Below, piece after piece: positions 36,954 to 45,894 of a stretch of DNA of 64,000 nucleotides. Below the pieces are notes generated by a model, which worked only from the letters and a program-made list of their open reading frames with translations, had not been told where the DNA came from and searched no databases. The stretch is taken from NCBI RefSeq assembly GCF_002159705.1, contig NZ_NFJD01000002.1, forward strand, positions 248,001 to 312,000, read 5' to 3'. The translations under genes and the position numbers were made by a program. Source of the DNA: Elusimicrobium sp. An273 (GTDB taxonomy: Bacteria > Elusimicrobiota > Elusimicrobia > Elusimicrobiales > Elusimicrobiaceae). Numbering within the stretch: the first letter of the stretch is position 1; each line of letters opens with the position of its first letter.

Positions 36954-38297
36954 TCACCTGTTTTCTTCCGGCACTACCAAGGCATAATCAAAACCTGTTT
37001 TCTGCGCAAAAATGCGCCCCAGTCCGCTTTTCCAATAGTATAGCGTTAAATCGGAATGAGGGGTAAAGAAGACATCCTCTTTTCCCCACACGGTATACAA
37101 GGCGGAAACGGACGAAGGCTGACCAAGCGTTACTTCTACCACCGCCGGTTTTTCAGCGGCGAAAAACTTGGGCAACGAATAGGGCAACAGCCACGAAGTA
37201 TGCCCGATTCCGGCATACACCACAAACAAGGCGTTGGGATCGGTCTGCCGAACGGCGGCCATTTTGCGCTCTATAATCCGCGCCCAGGTTTTATTGCGAA
37301 GCGAAATGGAAAGCGCCGGATTTTTGACCTGGCATATAGGCCCGCATTCCTGTTCCAACACTTCCATCAGCCGGCGGTCTTCCAGCGGATAAATTTCCAC
37401 TTTTTCTTGGAACAAACGCAAAAATAAATTGGCTGCATAATCGATGCGCGCGGCGGACGAAAAATCTTCTTGGTTTAATTTGTCCAAAGACATTTCCTTG
37501 GTTTTCAAATAATAGTCCGACAGGGAACTTCCTTCCCGGGGAGCGTTGGAATTTAAATCAATAAATTCCGTAAATAAAATCACCCGGCGGCGCGGATTTT
37601 GCTTTTTTAAAAACAAAACTAATTTGGTGATGGTCTGCTGTACGGAAGAAATCCCGTGCTGTTCGCCGATAAGGATCATTCTTTCTTTGTTTAATTTTTG
37701 GGCAAATTCGCCCAGCACATTGTCCGACTGCAGCCGCCCCAATAATTTGCGCCCTTGGTCGGGCACGTTGGCGAGCCACTGCATTTTGCCAAAGAAATTT
37801 CTGCTGGCTAGCAAAACGATTTTGTTGTTTTTTACCGCAAATTCGGACGGCCATTCAATCGGCTTATAAATGCTTTTAAACAGCCAATTGTTTAAAAACT
37901 GGTTGTTCCATAACCAAAGTTTCTTTACTTCCGTTACCACTTCCCGGTTCCGCTTCGCCCATTCCGAACTCACGTTGGCCTGATAATACAGCTCCAATAA
38001 CTGCGAAAGCAGATCTTCCATTTCTTCTTGCTGAACCCGTATGTTTTTTAACGAAACATTGGCCAAAAACGCCTCTTCCGCCGCCGCAGCGTCTGCCACT
38101 TCCTCCAACTCTTTGCCTAACGCCGAGCGAAAACCGGACGTTCCTGTTTTCCCCGTTTGCCCGCCAACCGCATTTTTTACGGCGTCTCCTTTTACGGCAC
38201 GCGCAATGGGCAGCAGGCGTTTTTGCGCCCACAACGAAGGGGCCGCCAGCATGCCGCATCCGAGCAAAAGGAGTACAAATACAATTCTTTTTTTCAT
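36954..38297 (-). CDS. Secreted ChaN/EreA-like protein, paralogue 5
   Basis: 447 residues. The signal peptide ends near LWA-Q and the mature start is QKRLLPIARAV. A helical N-terminal region with an acidic stretch (KELEEVADAAAAEEAFL) precedes the core: MILIGEQHGISSVQ (H214), RRVILFTEFIDLN, EIYPLEDRR, RNKTWARIIERKM and ALFVVYAGIGHTSW (H366). It ends GFDYALVVPEENR. The start is preceded by TATAGT 11 nt upstream and lacks a good ribosome site, so a second internal promoter is likely here (-35 weak). Confidence 0.78.
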   Translation of the reverse strand: MKKRIVFVLLLLGCGMLAAPSLWAQKRLLPIARAVKGDAVKNAVGGQTGKTGTSGFRSALGKELEEVADAAAAEEAFLANVSLKNIRVQQEEMEDLLSQLLELYYQANVSSEWAKRNREVVTEVKKLWLWNNQFLNNWLFKSIYKPIEWPSEFAVKNNKIVLLASRNFFGKMQWLANVPDQGRKLLGRLQSDNVLGEFAQKLNKERMILIGEQHGISSVQQTITKLVLFLKKQNPRRRVILFTEFIDLNSNAPREGSSLSDYYLKTKEMSLDKLNQEDFSSAARIDYAANLFLRLFQEKVEIYPLEDRRLMEVLEQECGPICQVKNPALSISLRNKTWARIIERKMAAVRQTDPNALFVVYAGIGHTSWLLPYSLPKFFAAEKPAVVEVTLGQPSSVSALYTVWGKEDVFFTPHSDLTLYYWKSGLGRIFAQKTGFDYALVVPEENR

Positions 38298-38342
38298 CTT
38301 TAACTTATACTATATTTCTTTTTTTAAGTTCTATAAAAATTT

Positions 38343-39745: not shown

Positions 39746-41008
39746 TTAGGGCAATATCAGTGCGTAATCAAAGCCGGTCTGCCTGCCTAACAGACGGGCC
39801 TCCCGCCCCTGCCAATAGAACAACGCCTGCTTGCGGAAATACGGATGTTCCCGATCCCACACCCCGCAAAGCGTATTTATTTCGGAAGGTTCCCCCACCG
39901 AAAATTCCACCACGGACGTTTTTTCTTTGGCAAAAAATTTGGGCAGGGCATACGGCATAATCCAGGAGGTATGCGCCATGCCGGCGTACACCACAAACAG
40001 CGCATCCGGATCCGTCTTGCGGATCTGCGCCATTTTATGCTCCATCATCCGCGCCCAGGTTTTGTTGCGAAGGGTAATAGCCAAGGCAGACACCTGCATA
40101 TCCCGCAGCAGGCCCTCTTCCTGATAAATCATCGAGCACAGCTTGCGGTCTTCCAGCGGATAAATTTCAAAATGATCGTCCAGTAAAATTTCAAACAAAT
40201 CCCGCGCATAATCCAACCGCTTAAAAAGATGCGGATCATCCTCTTGGATCCGTTCGGTGGGGAACTCGCTGGCGCGGCGATAGTAAGAAGCCAGCGAAGC
40301 GGGAGCTCCCTCCCGTGCCGTGGGCGGCAAATCTATAAACTCGGTAAACAACACAATGCGCCGGCCCTGGTTACGATCTTTCAATGCATAGAGCAGCTGC
40401 CCCACCGCCCGCTGGATTTCCGGCACATAATGAAATTCCCCCAGGAAAACGATATGGCTGTCCTCCACTTTGGCCGCCAGCTGCTTGATTAAATTGCCCG
40501 AAGATACATAGCCTAACTCCGCTTGCCCCTGTCCTTTGCGTTGTTTGAGCCACTGGGTTTTTTGCAACAGTGATTTGCTGGCCGCCAGCACGATTTGATT
40601 GTTCTGATAGGCAAACGGGGTGTTCTCCTGTAGCGGCGTATACAACGTTTCATACGCGCCGCCATAGATTAAATCTTCATTTTGTTCCCACGTTTGGTCA
40701 ATCTGGCGCAATAACTCGTCGTTTTTTGCCTGTCTTGTTTTATCCACCTGAAAAAGCGCGCGGCGCTGCAAGCTGTGCTGAAACTTCAGCCGGGAAGCAG
40801 GCGGCACTGCTTGGGCGGCAGGAAAACGGGTTAAAGCCCGAGCGGCAGTGGTGGCGCCAAACGAAGAGGCACTTCCACAGGCGCGGGCGGCCGTTTTGGG
40901 CGCATTTGTAAGCAAGGCGCGGCCCGCCGGCACCAGATTTTTCTGAGCCCATACCGGCGCCGCCGGAACAGATAAAATAAAAAACAACAACAGGACTAAA
41001 TTTTTCAT
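39746..41008 (-). CDS. Secreted ChaN/EreA-like protein, paralogue 3
   Basis: 420 residues. Signal peptide to VWA-Q, mature start QKNLVPAGRAL. Core: IVFLGEFHYVPEIQ (H193), RRIVLFTEFIDLP, EIYPLEDRK, RNKTWARMMEHKM and ALFVVYAGMAHTSW (H346). It ends GFDYALILP. I chose the ATG at 41008 because the signal peptide begins there; the longer frame adds 64 residues of noncoding character. The -10 box TATAGT ends 6 nt before the ATG and no ribosome site exists, so the mRNA is predicted leaderless. The promoter and its upstream repeats are a copy of those before paralogue 1. Confidence 0.8.
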   Translation of the reverse strand: MKNLVLLLFFILSVPAAPVWAQKNLVPAGRALLTNAPKTAARACGSASSFGATTAARALTRFPAAQAVPPASRLKFQHSLQRRALFQVDKTRQAKNDELLRQIDQTWEQNEDLIYGGAYETLYTPLQENTPFAYQNNQIVLAASKSLLQKTQWLKQRKGQGQAELGYVSSGNLIKQLAAKVEDSHIVFLGEFHYVPEIQRAVGQLLYALKDRNQGRRIVLFTEFIDLPPTAREGAPASLASYYRRASEFPTERIQEDDPHLFKRLDYARDLFEILLDDHFEIYPLEDRKLCSMIYQEEGLLRDMQVSALAITLRNKTWARMMEHKMAQIRKTDPDALFVVYAGMAHTSWIMPYALPKFFAKEKTSVVEFSVGEPSEINTLCGVWDREHPYFRKQALFYWQGREARLLGRQTGFDYALILP

Positions 41009-41014
41009 ACTATT

Positions 41015-41043
41015 ACTATATCGTTTTACCGTCTTAAAAAACA
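41015..41043 (-). promoter_or_regulatory. Leaderless promoter of paralogue 3 (copy of the 44051 promoter)
   Basis: TGTTTT, 17-nt spacer, TATAGT, then AATAGT and the ATG. Spacing to the ATG and to the upstream repeats is identical to the promoter at 44051-44079. Confidence 0.65.
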
Positions 41044-41051
41044 GAGTCTTT

Positions 41052-41097
41052 AGGCCTATTGTTTCCCTCCAAAAAGGCCTATTTACCTCTAGGCCCT
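41052..41097. repeat. Three phased AGGCCTAT-type repeats upstream of paralogue 3
   Basis: AGGCCTAT at 41052 and 41075 and AGGCCCT at 41091. Relative to the predicted start they lie at about -44, -67 and -83, positions usual for activator sites. The same set with the same spacing lies before paralogue 1. Confidence 0.7.
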
Positions 41098-41145
41098 CGG
41101 CGGGGCAAAAAGCGCGTCGGACGTTCTTGTAAGGTTTCTTTTTAA

Positions 41146-41178
41146 GCGGCGCTCCGCCGCCCGGATAATCCCGGGCGG
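41146..41178 (-). other. Two mutually exclusive GC hairpins after paralogue 2
   Basis: GCGGCG/CGCCGC (41146-41160) and CCGCCCGG/CCGGGCGG (41157-41178) share four bases, so only one can form at a time. They lie 30-60 nt past the paralogue 2 stop codon on the minus strand. No T run follows, so termination is uncertain. Confidence 0.5.
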
Positions 41179-41209
41179 GAAAAGCGACATTTGGTAACAA
41201 GCAGGAGGA

Positions 41210-42544
41210 TTATTCTCCGGGCACAACGAGCAGGTAATCAAAACCGCTGCAGTTGGCCAGCTGGCGGGAGTCTTCGCCTTGCCAGGAGAAGAAACTGGGA
41301 TGCAAAGGCGGATTTATAAAAAGCGGATCATCGGAAGGCCAAAGGATTTTAAGCGAGGTATGATCCAGCAATCTGTTTAAAGCCAGTTCCACCACCACCG
41401 GTTTTTCAGCGGCGAAAAATTTGGGCAATGCCATCGGAGAAAGCCACGAAGTATGCGCTTGGCCGGCATAGACAATAAAAAGCGCGTCCGGATCTGTTTG
41501 GCGTATTTCCGCCATTTTAGCCGCCATCACCCGCACCCACGATTTGTTGCGCGCAGTCGTAATGACAGGCGCATCCAGCGAACCGCTCGTCTCTTTGGCC
41601 AATAAGGCAAACTGCCGGGTATCTTCCAGCGGATAGACTTCCACTTGGTGCTTAATTAACTGACGAAAAAGCGACGGAGCGTATAAAAACAGCCTTTGGT
41701 CTGTCGCCGCCAGCGGCTGAATTTCTGGTGCGGTAAAGTGTTTGTAATAAGTTGCCAAAGTCTGCCCGTTGCCGCTCTTTTCTTTGGGAAGCGGGATAAA
41801 CTCCGTAAACAGCACGACGCGGCGGTTTGGGTTTTGCTTTTTTAAAGTCAGCACCAAATTCACTACCGCCCGCTGAAAGGCCGGAACAAAATGATACTCC
41901 CCCAGCATAATTAATTTTTCTTGGCTTAACTGCCGCGCTAATTGGGCAAAAACGTTGCTTCCGCCTTCGGCCCCTTGCGGCTGATGCTGCGGATCTGCTC
42001 CCTTCACAAAAGCCTCTTTTGCCAGGTTCGTGTTCTGTTGGAGCCATTTCATTTTTTGAATATAATGGTTCAGGGTATGCAAAACGATTTGGTTGTTTTG
42101 TATGGCAAGCGGAGAAAAAACCGTCATATGGAAAAAAGAAGTCGAAAAGAGCTGCGCGTAATCAAACGAGCTGTAGGTGGTTTTCAAGCGTTCAATTTCG
42201 GCATACGTATTGATAAATTTTTGCAATTGCTGCAGGTCATTTTCTTTCAGTTCCCGCTCATATCCCCGGGCAGAAAAACTTTTTAGCAACCCGGCAGACG
42301 CATCTGACGCGCCGGTTTGAGCACTGAATAGGTCTTTTAAAGTGAAATGGCGGCTTACAGGCGCCCCTTGGCCCGCAGGCAATGCAAAAGCGGCGCCAGT
42401 GGCCAAAGCGGGCAAGGCGGGCGTTTTTACGGCCGTTTGCAGTGCCGTTTTTCCAACGACCGCTTTTGCGGCGGGCAGCATATTTTTTTGCGCCGCCGCC
42501 GGAAGCGCCAAACAAAACACCAAAAATAAAATTATTTTTCTCAT
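41210..42544 (-). CDS. Secreted ChaN/EreA-like protein, paralogue 2
   Basis: 444 residues. Signal peptide MRKIILFLVFCLALPAAA-Q, mature start QKNMLPAAKAV, then an Ala-rich region. Core: LIMLGEYHFVPAFQ (H218), RRVVLFTEFIPLP, EVYPLEDTRQ, ARNKSWVRVMAAKM and ALFIVYAGQAHTSW (H364). It ends GFDYLLVVPGE. An in-frame ATG at 42559 is possible, but the signal peptide begins at 42544. TAAAAT lies about 13 nt upstream; the phased GGCCTAT repeats of paralogues 1 and 3 are not present here. Confidence 0.78.
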   Translation of the reverse strand: MRKIILFLVFCLALPAAAQKNMLPAAKAVVGKTALQTAVKTPALPALATGAAFALPAGQGAPVSRHFTLKDLFSAQTGASDASAGLLKSFSARGYERELKENDLQQLQKFINTYAEIERLKTTYSSFDYAQLFSTSFFHMTVFSPLAIQNNQIVLHTLNHYIQKMKWLQQNTNLAKEAFVKGADPQHQPQGAEGGSNVFAQLARQLSQEKLIMLGEYHFVPAFQRAVVNLVLTLKKQNPNRRVVLFTEFIPLPKEKSGNGQTLATYYKHFTAPEIQPLAATDQRLFLYAPSLFRQLIKHQVEVYPLEDTRQFALLAKETSGSLDAPVITTARNKSWVRVMAAKMAEIRQTDPDALFIVYAGQAHTSWLSPMALPKFFAAEKPVVVELALNRLLDHTSLKILWPSDDPLFINPPLHPSFFSWQGEDSRQLANCSGFDYLLVVPGE

Positions 42545-42649
42545 TTCTGCATTTACCATTTTAAAATCCGTTTTTAGCCCGATCCATTTGGAGTTTTTCC
42601 CCCGTCTTTGGGCCCAGCCAAACGCTGGCCCGGCGGGCGAAATTCCGCC

Positions 42650-44044
42650 CTAGAGCGAATTTATAAAAGAAACATACTTGCGCTGCAGTTTCCCTTTCAG
42701 CGAATGCGGCACCACCACCAAATAATCAAATCCGCTGTTGCGCGCCAGCAGCGAAGCGTCTTCTCCCGTCCAATACGAGAAAGAAGCCCGAAGCGGCCTT
42801 GCAAAGAGCGGAACTTCTTCCCCCCACAAAAAATGGAGGATATTCTTTTTTACAAACGGATCAAACTGAAATTCCACCGTTACCGGTTTTTCCGGCGCAA
42901 AAAAGGCGGCCAACGGATATTGCCGCTGACGGTTTACGTGACCTAAGCCCGCATATACAATAAACAATGCATCCGGATCGGTTTTGCGGATCTGCGCCAT
43001 TTTATATTCCATCACCCGCGCCCATATTTTATTGCGGGAAGCCACTTGCAGTAACATGGCTTTTTGTCTGTTCGCCGCCTTTAATAAATCAATCAGCACC
43101 ACATCTTCCAGCGGATAAACTTCCACCTGCGCACGAACCAGCCGCAGCAGCACATCCCGTGCGTATCTTTTTTGCTGGGCTTGTTCTACAGAGAGCTGCG
43201 GCGAAGTGCTCTCGTCCACCCGGCGGTAATACGTTTCGGCCGTTTGGTTGACGACCTGCGGCCCGGCTACGGGCAAATGTGCAAATTCGGAAAACACTAC
43301 AATGCGGCGGTTGGGGTTTTGCTTTTTCAGTTCCAAAATCAAATCGCCCACGGCCTGCTGCACTTCCAGCTGATAATGTCCTTCTCCCAGCATAATCAAT
43401 TTTTCCTGCCGCAGCCGGCCCGCCAGTTGGCGCACCACATTCCCCCACGAGGATATGACCGAATGCAGTGCATCGCGGCCTTGGTTGGGGTAGTGTTTCA
43501 TCCAGTTAAACTTTTGATGCAGATACTGTAAATGACTGACGAGCAGTTTATTGTTCAGTACGGCCTCGGCGGAATAGTCCGATAAGAGGGATGCCTCGGG
43601 GCGGAAGAAAAGGAATTTCTTAAAGTCCGGATCCTGCAACGTCATCCGGTCAATTTGTCTTAATGTCGCTTGGAATTCTTCGGGGGTTTGCAAACTGCTT
43701 TCATAGGAGGCGGCCTGGTGTTTGCGCCAGTTTGTTACAGACGCATAAGGCGTCAGAAACGGCTTACTCAACTGTTTTCGAATAAACTCCCTCAGCAAAA
43801 ATTTATCGGCCCCCGGCAATCGTTTTATCCTCTCATAGGCAGCCGGAACGTTTCTTCCGCCAAAAACAGCGGCATCCGGCGGCAAATTTAAGCCGGGCAC
43901 CCCCACCGCGGAGATTCCTTTTGCCAGATGCTGAGACACCCCCGCTGGCCGGGCCATCCCCGCGCGCACGGCCGGCAGCAGATTTTTCTGCGCATAGGCG
44001 GGCACCGTTAAACATAACATAAAAAACAAATAAGACTTTCTCAT
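42650..44044 (-). CDS. Secreted ChaN/EreA-like protein, paralogue 1
   Basis: 464 residues. Signal peptide to AYA-Q, mature start QKNLLPAVRAG. The N-terminal helical region matches paralogue 4. Core: LIMLGEGHYQLEVQ (H223), RRIVVFSEFAHLP, EVYPLEDVV, SRNKIWARVMEYKM and ALFIVYAGLGHVNR (H369). After GFDYLVVVP comes the tail SLKGKLQRKYVSFINSL. ChaN relatives bind haem; EreA and TIKI relatives with the same GExH fold hydrolyse esters or peptides, so the function stays open. The start at 44044 is 6 nt after TATAGT with no ribosome site (leaderless). It is the first gene after terL. Confidence 0.8.
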   Translation of the reverse strand: MRKSYLFFMLCLTVPAYAQKNLLPAVRAGMARPAGVSQHLAKGISAVGVPGLNLPPDAAVFGGRNVPAAYERIKRLPGADKFLLREFIRKQLSKPFLTPYASVTNWRKHQAASYESSLQTPEEFQATLRQIDRMTLQDPDFKKFLFFRPEASLLSDYSAEAVLNNKLLVSHLQYLHQKFNWMKHYPNQGRDALHSVISSWGNVVRQLAGRLRQEKLIMLGEGHYQLEVQQAVGDLILELKKQNPNRRIVVFSEFAHLPVAGPQVVNQTAETYYRRVDESTSPQLSVEQAQQKRYARDVLLRLVRAQVEVYPLEDVVLIDLLKAANRQKAMLLQVASRNKIWARVMEYKMAQIRKTDPDALFIVYAGLGHVNRQRQYPLAAFFAPEKPVTVEFQFDPFVKKNILHFLWGEEVPLFARPLRASFSYWTGEDASLLARNSGFDYLVVVPHSLKGKLQRKYVSFINSL

Positions 44045-44050
44045 ATTATT

Positions 44051-44079
44051 ACTATACCGCTTTCGGCCTTCCAAGAACA
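44051..44079 (-). promoter_or_regulatory. Leaderless promoter of paralogue 1
   Basis: TGTTCT, 17-nt spacer, TATAGT, then AATAAT and the ATG. The region up to 44132 is homologous to that upstream of paralogue 3. Confidence 0.65.
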
Positions 44080-44087
44080 GAGTCATT

Positions 44088-44132
44088 GGGCCTATAAATT
44101 TTTTTCCAAAAGTCCTATTCTTTTTGGGCCCT
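44088..44132. repeat. Three phased GGGCCTAT-type repeats upstream of paralogue 1
   Basis: GGGCCTAT at 44088, AGTCCTAT at 44111 and GGGCCCT at 44126. The steps of 23 and 15 nt match the 23 and 16 nt before paralogue 3. They fill the gap between promoter and the terL stop codon. Confidence 0.7.
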
Positions 44133-44140
44133 GATTTGCT

Positions 44141-45463
44141 TTACAGCACCTCGTACTCGCTGTTGGCAAATTCGCATTTGCCACCCGCGCTTCGCGCGCG
44201 CACGGGAGCGGCAAACGTAAGGGCCAGGGCGTCTGCCGTGTCGGGGCTTTTGCCGCAGCGCTCTTTGATTTTTTCTTTCGGCTCCAGGCGCAAGCGTCCG
44301 GCGGCGTCAAAGTCATAACACACTTGGCACAAATCCGCTTTCAGTTCCGCACACTCCGGCAGGGCGCCTCCCGCCTTTATCCACGCCGCCATTTCCCCCC
44401 ACATTTCCGCCCGCTTGTTGGCATACTGCCCCGGGCGGGCCGGCGCGCCGCCGAAAGGCACTTCCGTTACGCTAAACCCCAGCTGGCGCAGGCGGTCAAT
44501 CACGCCGCCGCCGCAACCGGCATCCACAAACACCGCATCAGGATGAAACGTTTCTATCTGCCGGGCCGCCCGTTCGGCCAGGGCCATATTGTCCAACTGC
44601 CGAAATACCAGCGGCTCCCACGTTTTTAACCCCTGACGCAAAAAGATGACGCTGCGGTCGTTTCCGAAACGGGCCGGATCAATGCCGATGATTTTGGGTG
44701 CAAAACGCACTTCGGCCGGCGCATAACGGCGCGCACAGGCCTGCAGGACGCAGTCTATGGGGATTAATACATTCTCCGCCGAGGCCGTAAAATCGCACAG
44801 GTATTCCTGCCTGAAAATGTTGGCGGGTGTTTCCCGGCGCAGGCGCTCGAGTTCCCCCGGAGAGATGACGCCCGATTCATCGGCGCGGAATACGCCCACC
44901 CACCACACGCCGGGCTCTTCCTGCGCGGCCTTTTGGGCGCGGTTAAACAGTTCAAAAAATGCGTTTTGCCCTTTGGGCGTACCCATAAACACGGCCCACC
45001 CTTCCCGCGAAAGAAGCATCGGGCGGATAATTTCGGTAAACACATCGGGCTTAATCTGGGCGTATTCGTCCAACACAACGCCGTCTGCATATGTGCCGCG
45101 CAGGGCGTCTGGATTATCGGCGCCGCACACCCAAATCCGCGCGCCGTTGGGCAGGCGCAGGCACAGTTCCGCTTCGTTTACGCCCACGCCCGGCAGCGGG
45201 GCCGAATAACGTTTTAAATAATCCCAGGCAATCATTTTGGCCTGCTTTAAAAAAGGCGCCAAATAGAAATAGCGCGAATGCGGCCGCGTGTTCTGCAGGG
45301 CTTTTTTAAGCAAGTGATTAACGGCGCAGACGGTCTTGCCCAGCTGGCGATGGGTAACCAGCACGCAAAAGCGGTGCGTTTCCAGCTGGGGGTGAATTTG
45401 ACGCTGCGCCAGGCGCGGATGATAGGGGATGGTAATCAGCCAATCGGAAGGTTGTTTTTTCAT
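44141..45463 (-). CDS. Terminase large subunit
   Basis: 440 residues. The packaging ATPase half has the Walker A-like THRQLGKTVCA (37-47, QLGKT variant), Walker B with catalytic Glu in GVVLDEYA (128-135) and the coupling motif FMGTPKGQN. The nuclease half begins at IIGIDPARFGNDRS with its first metal Asp. It pumps DNA into the head and cuts it. The ATG at 45463 overlaps the terS stop by 4 nt; the longer frame is the antisense of terS in another phase. All key residues are intact. Confidence 0.93.
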   Translation of the reverse strand: MKKQPSDWLITIPYHPRLAQRQIHPQLETHRFCVLVTHRQLGKTVCAVNHLLKKALQNTRPHSRYFYLAPFLKQAKMIAWDYLKRYSAPLPGVGVNEAELCLRLPNGARIWVCGADNPDALRGTYADGVVLDEYAQIKPDVFTEIIRPMLLSREGWAVFMGTPKGQNAFFELFNRAQKAAQEEPGVWWVGVFRADESGVISPGELERLRRETPANIFRQEYLCDFTASAENVLIPIDCVLQACARRYAPAEVRFAPKIIGIDPARFGNDRSVIFLRQGLKTWEPLVFRQLDNMALAERAARQIETFHPDAVFVDAGCGGGVIDRLRQLGFSVTEVPFGGAPARPGQYANKRAEMWGEMAAWIKAGGALPECAELKADLCQVCYDFDAAGRLRLEPKEKIKERCGKSPDTADALALTFAAPVRARSAGGKCEFANSEYEVL

Positions 45464-45894
45464 TTCTCGCTCTCCCAGCGCACCACCAGCGGCGCAGGTT
45501 GGGAAGGTTCTTCTTTGCCGTCCTTCCAACCCAAAAGATTTTTGGCGGTAAATACCGCAAAGGAAGCGGAATAATTGCCGCGCAGGCTGTTTTGAATTAA
45601 GATATTGCCCTGCAAATCGCGCGCTTTGGCGGCGGCTTGGCGAAAGGCGGGATGTTTTTCTTCCCATTCTTTCAGCACGCGGCACGTCGTGCCAAGCATT
45701 TTGGCAAAGGCGGCAAAAGTGGGCAATTCGGCGGCGGTTTCCACGAGGGAAATGCTTCCGTCGCGTTTGGCTACTTCCGTTACGGTAAAAGGCGCAACGT
45801 CAAAAAACCGCAGCAGACGCTCGCAAAATTCAGGTTGGTATTTTAACGGTTTTTCCCGCGTTTTTAACGTGCGGGCACGGGTTTTGGCAGGCAT
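45460..45894 (-). CDS. Terminase small subunit
   Basis: 144 residues. A basic N-terminus (MPAKTRARTLKTREK) and a helix-turn-helix-like region (LPTFAAFAKMLGTTCRVLKE-W) followed by helices fit DNA-binding small terminases that recognise the packaging start. It overlaps terL by 4 nt. AAGGAG precedes the ATG at 45894; the longer frame has no ribosome site. A consensus promoter lies 150 nt upstream. Confidence 0.85.
   Translation of the reverse strand: MPAKTRARTLKTREKPLKYQPEFCERLLRFFDVAPFTVTEVAKRDGSISLVETAAELPTFAAFAKMLGTTCRVLKEWEEKHPAFRQAAAKARDLQGNILIQNSLRGNYSASFAVFTAKNLLGWKDGKEEPSQPAPLVVRWESEK

Follow-up and report, generated by a model that had tools for sequence, protein, structure and literature searches.

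Why should two paralogous genes for exported proteins carry the same arrangement of short boxes ahead of their promoters? The window analysed here is a stretch of 64,000 nucleotides (G000 C2:248001-312000) from the genome of Elusimicrobium sp. An273, which comprises 1.50 Mb in 14 contigs with a GC content of 52%. At ~33-44 kb of the window, a minus-strand cluster encodes exported ChaN/Tiki-like paralogues, whose matches to PF04187 (E ~5e-4 to 3e-5) stay under the curated cut-off. Two of these paralogues, gene 1 and gene 3, are preceded by similar cassettes (Table 1). On the minus strand, the cassette of gene 1 reads GGGCCTA-GAGGTAAA-TAGGCC TTTTTGG...CAATAGGCCTAAAGACTC TGTTTT-N17-TATAGT-AATAGT-ATG, and that of gene 3 reads GGGCCC-AAAAAGAA-TAGGAC TTTTGG...TTATAGGCCCAATGACTC TGTTCT-N17-TATAGT-AATAAT-ATG.

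Table 1. Positions in the window of the two cassettes, their parts and the genes behind them
Feature	Positions	Strand	Evidence
Gene 1: exported ChaN/Tiki-like protein, signal peptide MKNLVLLLFFILSVPAAPVWAQ	39746..41008	-	PF04187 E=2.9e-5, under curated cut-off
Gene 1 -10 TATAGT, 6 nt before ATG, predicted leaderless	41015..41020	-	sequence; genomic excess of the 6-nt distance
Gene 1 -35 TGTTTT	41038..41043	-	sequence; 17 bp from -10, as in most family heads
Gene 1 proximal dyad: TAGGCC-TAAA-GACTC, centre ~-42.5 from predicted start	41044..41058	-	kept in 17 operon heads; independent model
Gene 1 distal operator module: GGCCTA (41090-41095) N8 TAGGCC (41076-41081), then TTTTT	41072..41097	-	R2 E=0.014; 27.0 bits
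Gene 3: exported ChaN/Tiki-like protein, signal peptide MRKSYLFFMLCLTVPAYAQ	42650..44044	-	PF04187 E=1.1e-4, under curated cut-off
Gene 3 -10 TATAGT, 6 nt before ATG, predicted leaderless	44051..44056	-	sequence; genomic excess of the 6-nt distance
Gene 3 -35 TGTTCT	44074..44079	-	sequence
Gene 3 proximal dyad: TAGGCC-CAAT-GACTC	44080..44094	-	R2 match 44078-44098; weight matrix; kept in near orthologue L049
Gene 3 distal operator module: GGGCCC (44126-44131), TAGGAC (44112-44117), TTTTGG	44106..44131	-	R2 match 44106-44128, E=3.2, weak alone; place and spacing as in gene 1

An earlier note on this DNA had described a TATAGT 6 nt before the ATG with TGTT(C/T)T 17 nt further up, and this is true of both cassettes. 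It had also described three GGCCTAT repeats at matching distances. Two TAGGYC boxes do lie 23 bp apart in both cassettes; the exact heptamer is present at only three of the six positions (41053, 41076 and 44089), the inexact boxes being GTCCTAT, GGCCTA and GGGCCC. Nor are the boxes equivalent direct repeats. The outermost, ~14 nt beyond the distal TAGGYC box, is inverted (GRCCYA against TAGGYC), while the proximal box is one half of a dyad, TAGGYC-N4-GRCTC (GGYC-N4-GRC), that ends where the -35 begins. Each cassette is thus a distal pair of half-sites plus a proximal dyad. GGCCTAT by itself is mildly enriched in the window (13 occurrences against 7.3 expected), and the signal is the dyad plus its spacing rather than the heptamer count. 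The cassettes agree at 71 of 107 aligned columns (66%), close to the ~70% proposed earlier, versus 57 of 110 columns for the next 100 bp upstream.

Upstream regions of ~100 ChaN-like family members were collected from related genomes and compared. The module is carried by operon heads and is mostly absent from operon-internal members of the family. Across 17 operon heads from about a dozen species, the repeats are conserved at orthologous loci, as the earlier note had suggested checking, and the alignment between the two TAGGYC boxes is free of gaps. A second module lies 23 bp further up in ChaN-like heads, and since distal and proximal modules are matched separately by the model described below, these heads carry the operator twice in tandem. 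In most family heads the -10 hexamer begins 36-37 nt after the GG. One relative (L044) has its ATG further downstream, behind a Shine-Dalgarno-like sequence, with the element-to--10 distance unchanged. Since this distance is kept and that to the ATG is not, the element belongs with the promoter rather than with the start codon. RNAalifold gave no convincing shared RNA fold in the upstream regions, and an Rfam scan of the window returned tRNAs only.

The core of the cassette, TAGGYC-N4-GRCYC, directly adjoins the -35 and is in most cases preceded by a GRCCYA half-site 8 nt further up. R1, a model of the cassette built from sequence only, had many further matches in the genome, and a search of the whole genome with the core pattern GGNCYWWNGNCYCTKG gave 22 matches, against none for the same pattern backwards. 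All 61 genomes of the genus contain core matches (4 to 40 each); controls gave 0-2, once 5 and mostly 0. In a sample of the phylum, the excess persists within the same family in genera g2 and g3 and is gone in the large f10 group. The module was therefore too narrowly described as a cassette of the duplicated pair, since its core occurs throughout the genome and genus before unrelated genes.

We checked 62 sites in three species (the An273 genome, G030 and G035), and their logo is GRCCYA-N8-TAGGYC-YWWW-GRCCC-T(T/G)G-N20-TATAAT. A TATAAT-like -10 emerges 36-41 nt after the core (36-37 nt at most sites), though it was unused in site selection. After TTG the -35 is a poor one, with positions 4-6 failing to match ACA. 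With a transcript start 7 nt beyond the -10, the centre of the dyad GGYC-N4-GRCC would fall at -42.5; in the logo of TAGGYC-N4-GRCYCT, conservation towards TAGGYC symmetry is lower in its right half. A constant distance to the -10 before many unrelated genes, spacing and sequence kept in the orthologous operon heads, and an upstream region without a conserved RNA fold all argue that the module has been selected for protein binding, as had been proposed from the two cassettes.

A second model, R2, was trained on 46 sites at other genes, and neither window cassette entered it or its weight matrix. R2 has four matches at E<=5 in the 64 kb, and they are the distal and proximal modules of the two cassettes. 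Singly these matches are weak (E 0.014 to 3.2); it is their coincidence that counts. When the weight matrix was run over all positions of the window on both strands, the cassettes came first and second with 19.9 and 17.9 bits, the next position reaching 6.7. The distal module of gene 1, at 27.0 bits, was the best of its kind in the window, followed by 14.0. That an independent matrix singles out both cassettes means that the module is not a product of chance. In the whole An273 genome, R2 finds ~33 sites at E below 0.02. The window cassettes rank below that threshold, which suggests a regulon of roughly 30-40 promoters.

These results bear on the simplest account of the cassettes, namely that they arose when an upstream region was duplicated and have since drifted without any function. 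The genes are indeed paralogues in one cluster, and the DNA beyond the cassettes can also be aligned. Nonetheless, the module is conserved at equivalent positions in about a dozen species, stands before unrelated genes and is recognized in both cassettes by a model that had seen neither. The genome and genus pattern counts, together with the weight matrix, already contradict this account, and we regard it as extremely improbable.

The genes behind the sites point to a common purpose. A gene start lies within 260 nt at 58 of the 62 sites, and genes with a Sec-type signal peptide follow 53 of the 62 (85%), compared with 34% of operon-first genes in the An273 genome (53 of 155; Fisher p=2.4e-12). 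The signal-peptide calls are crude, being based on hydrophobicity, charge and a cleavage-like motif, and the rule was identical for site and control genes. Among R2 matches in the An273 genome beyond the core pattern and the training set, each of the eight new ones on the correct strand stands before a gene for an exported protein. At a few sites the gene that follows is unclear or its product is not exported. Pfam matches among the products include trypsin-like peptidases, an M20 peptidase, glutaminase-like proteins, SpoIID and ChaN-like proteins, while most regulon products have no family.

Several loci deserve separate mention. Two products encoded at ~299-301 kb of contig C1 (L112 and L113) combine a signal peptide with a match to the receiver domain PF00072, which is odd for exported proteins. 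A conserved basic protein of 87 amino acids, with no clear signal peptide, follows the element and a predicted leaderless start at L107:1549-1809 and at L165 (G035); it is found in two species and adjoins a ChaN-like gene. At C3:111954-112019 of the An273 genome (L217, L219), a near-palindromic operator has a gene for an exported protein on one side and a type IV pilin-like gene, on the other strand, on the other side.

Taken together, the pattern makes it likely that each cassette is the operator and promoter of an exported-protein regulon controlled by a trans-acting regulator, most plausibly a class II activator. A dimeric DNA-binding protein would occupy the distal half-sites as well as the dyad, whose centre is at -42.5. 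From there it would touch RNA polymerase as a class II activator, making up for a -35 that matches poorly after TTG. About 30-40 secreted-protein genes would thereby be switched on together, among them genes for ChaN-like proteins, trypsin-like proteases, a glutaminase-like protein, an M20 peptidase and many proteins without a family.

The sign of this regulation is judged from the position of the dyad. Because the dyad and the -35 meet without a gap, at a place that repressors also use, the same protein might instead block RNA polymerase until exported proteins are needed. A centre at -42.5 is the textbook position of a class II activator, however, and the -35 is of the kind expected at activator-dependent promoters, though comparing it with the -35 of other leaderless genes did not settle the matter. 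Activation is thus the more likely sign, and repression appears unlikely.

The distal inverted repeat invites a different reading, as an intrinsic terminator of the upstream gene that happens to lie beside an ordinary promoter. The repeat at gene 1 forms a good fold (-14.5 kcal/mol, z -2.1) with TTTTT behind it, and terminators with a GGCC stem and a T-run occur in related loci. However, the distal repeat of gene 3 and that of its near orthologue fold no better than shuffled sequences (z 0.36 and 0.09), and the repeat also occurs at sites with a divergent upstream gene (L109, L119 and L121). Its half-site positions show no covariation, with A-C mismatches as well as A-T pairs. A terminator would also leave the proximal dyad and the exported-protein targets unexplained, so that we consider it very unlikely as a full account. 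An operator acting at the DNA level is the simpler reading of the distal repeat, and a double role at some sites is possible.

The operator reading extends to where transcripts would begin. The start codons of gene 1 and gene 3 would coincide with the expected transcription start, and their mRNAs are predicted to be leaderless. The ATG lies exactly 48 nt from the element at 14 of the 62 sites, as it does in both window genes, and at these sites too a leaderless mRNA is predicted. In a 464-kb sample of the An273 genome (C1:1-200000, C3:1-200000 and the window; 414 ORFs), TATAAT-like boxes occur 24 times exactly 6 nt before the ATG, against ~4 at neighbouring distances. This excess, together with the constant element-to--10 distance in L044, favours the promoter assignment and leaderless start that had been suggested for the two genes. 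The 6-nt peak further indicates that predicted leaderless genes form a genome-wide class and are not peculiar to the exported-protein regulon; most genes of the class have no operator.

Within the cluster, a third paralogue (36954-38297) has a TATAGT -10 at 38309-38314 on the minus strand, ~11 nt before its ATG. This promoter is without boxes and may be a separate, unregulated one inside the cluster. Directly upstream of the cluster, on the minus strand at 44141-45894, lie a terminase large subunit (Terminase_6N, E=1.5e-11) and a weak packaging-protein match, which suggest a phage-related remnant or element.

Which protein might bind the operator? Our best guess, offered as a lead only and by analogy with known systems, is a response regulator of the NarL/FixJ type. 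The genome encodes two such regulators with GerE domains, each beside a histidine kinase. One lies at C2:312227-312853 on the minus strand, ~230 bp past the end of the window, next to a hybrid histidine kinase; the other is at C4:102751-103395. The element is absent from the 8-10 kb around the two regulators, which thus give no sign of autoregulation. Orthologues of the regulator labelled RR1, at 60% identity or more, are confined to the family, yet two genomes in which they occur, G165 and G073, show no motif in the DNA sampled; the phyletic pattern thus ties RR1 to the motif too loosely, and this argument was set aside. No OmpR-type or LytTR regulator scored over the cut-off in the An273 genome. 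A CRP/FNR-type regulator was also considered and rejected, as the genome has no PF13545 match over the cut-off and the one weak match lies in a LexA-like protein.

Comparison with known systems shows both kinship and distance. The half-sites of CRP and FNR are TGTGA or TTGAT, unlike those described here, and a CRP-type helix-turn-helix over the cut-off is lacking in this genome; the resemblance to their class II promoters lies in a dyad centred at about -42 beside a weak -35. In other bacteria, DegU, Vfr and PrfA each place sets of secreted or virulence proteins under one trans-acting factor. The arrangement proposed here would be similar, with the difference that nearly every detected site precedes a gene for an exported protein and that several of the mRNAs are predicted to be leaderless. 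ComA of Bacillus subtilis, a NarL/FixJ-type regulator, binds inverted hexamers separated by 4 nt, together with extra half-sites, and activates ~20 genes in 9 units (PMC4797271). The element described here shares the 6-4-6 layout of inverted hexameric half-sites, the extra half-sites nearby and the occurrence at a set of promoters. It differs from ComA sites in its half-site (TAGGYC rather than TTGCGG), in having the extra half-sites upstream rather than downstream, and in its exported-protein targets.

Our literature search yielded no description of the motif and no Elusimicrobiota regulon; regulon, operator and target class alike appear to be undescribed. The novelty is limited by kind, an operator and a regulon being familiar things as such. 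A broader proposal, which in our estimate has an even chance of being right, is that one activator system governs most of the dedicated secreted proteins of this gut genus, acting through a multi-half-site operator fixed at -42.5 and, for some of the genes, through leaderless mRNAs. If a single system does operate, fast-evolving secreted families could join the program simply by gaining the module.

These Elusimicrobiota are known mostly from metagenomes. The switch allows candidate secreted proteins to be listed from sequence alone in every species of the genus, and the leaderless gene class now has sequence evidence in the phylum Elusimicrobiota. The switch also provides a bait for its regulator, and it prompts one to ask what signal in the gut triggers secretion.
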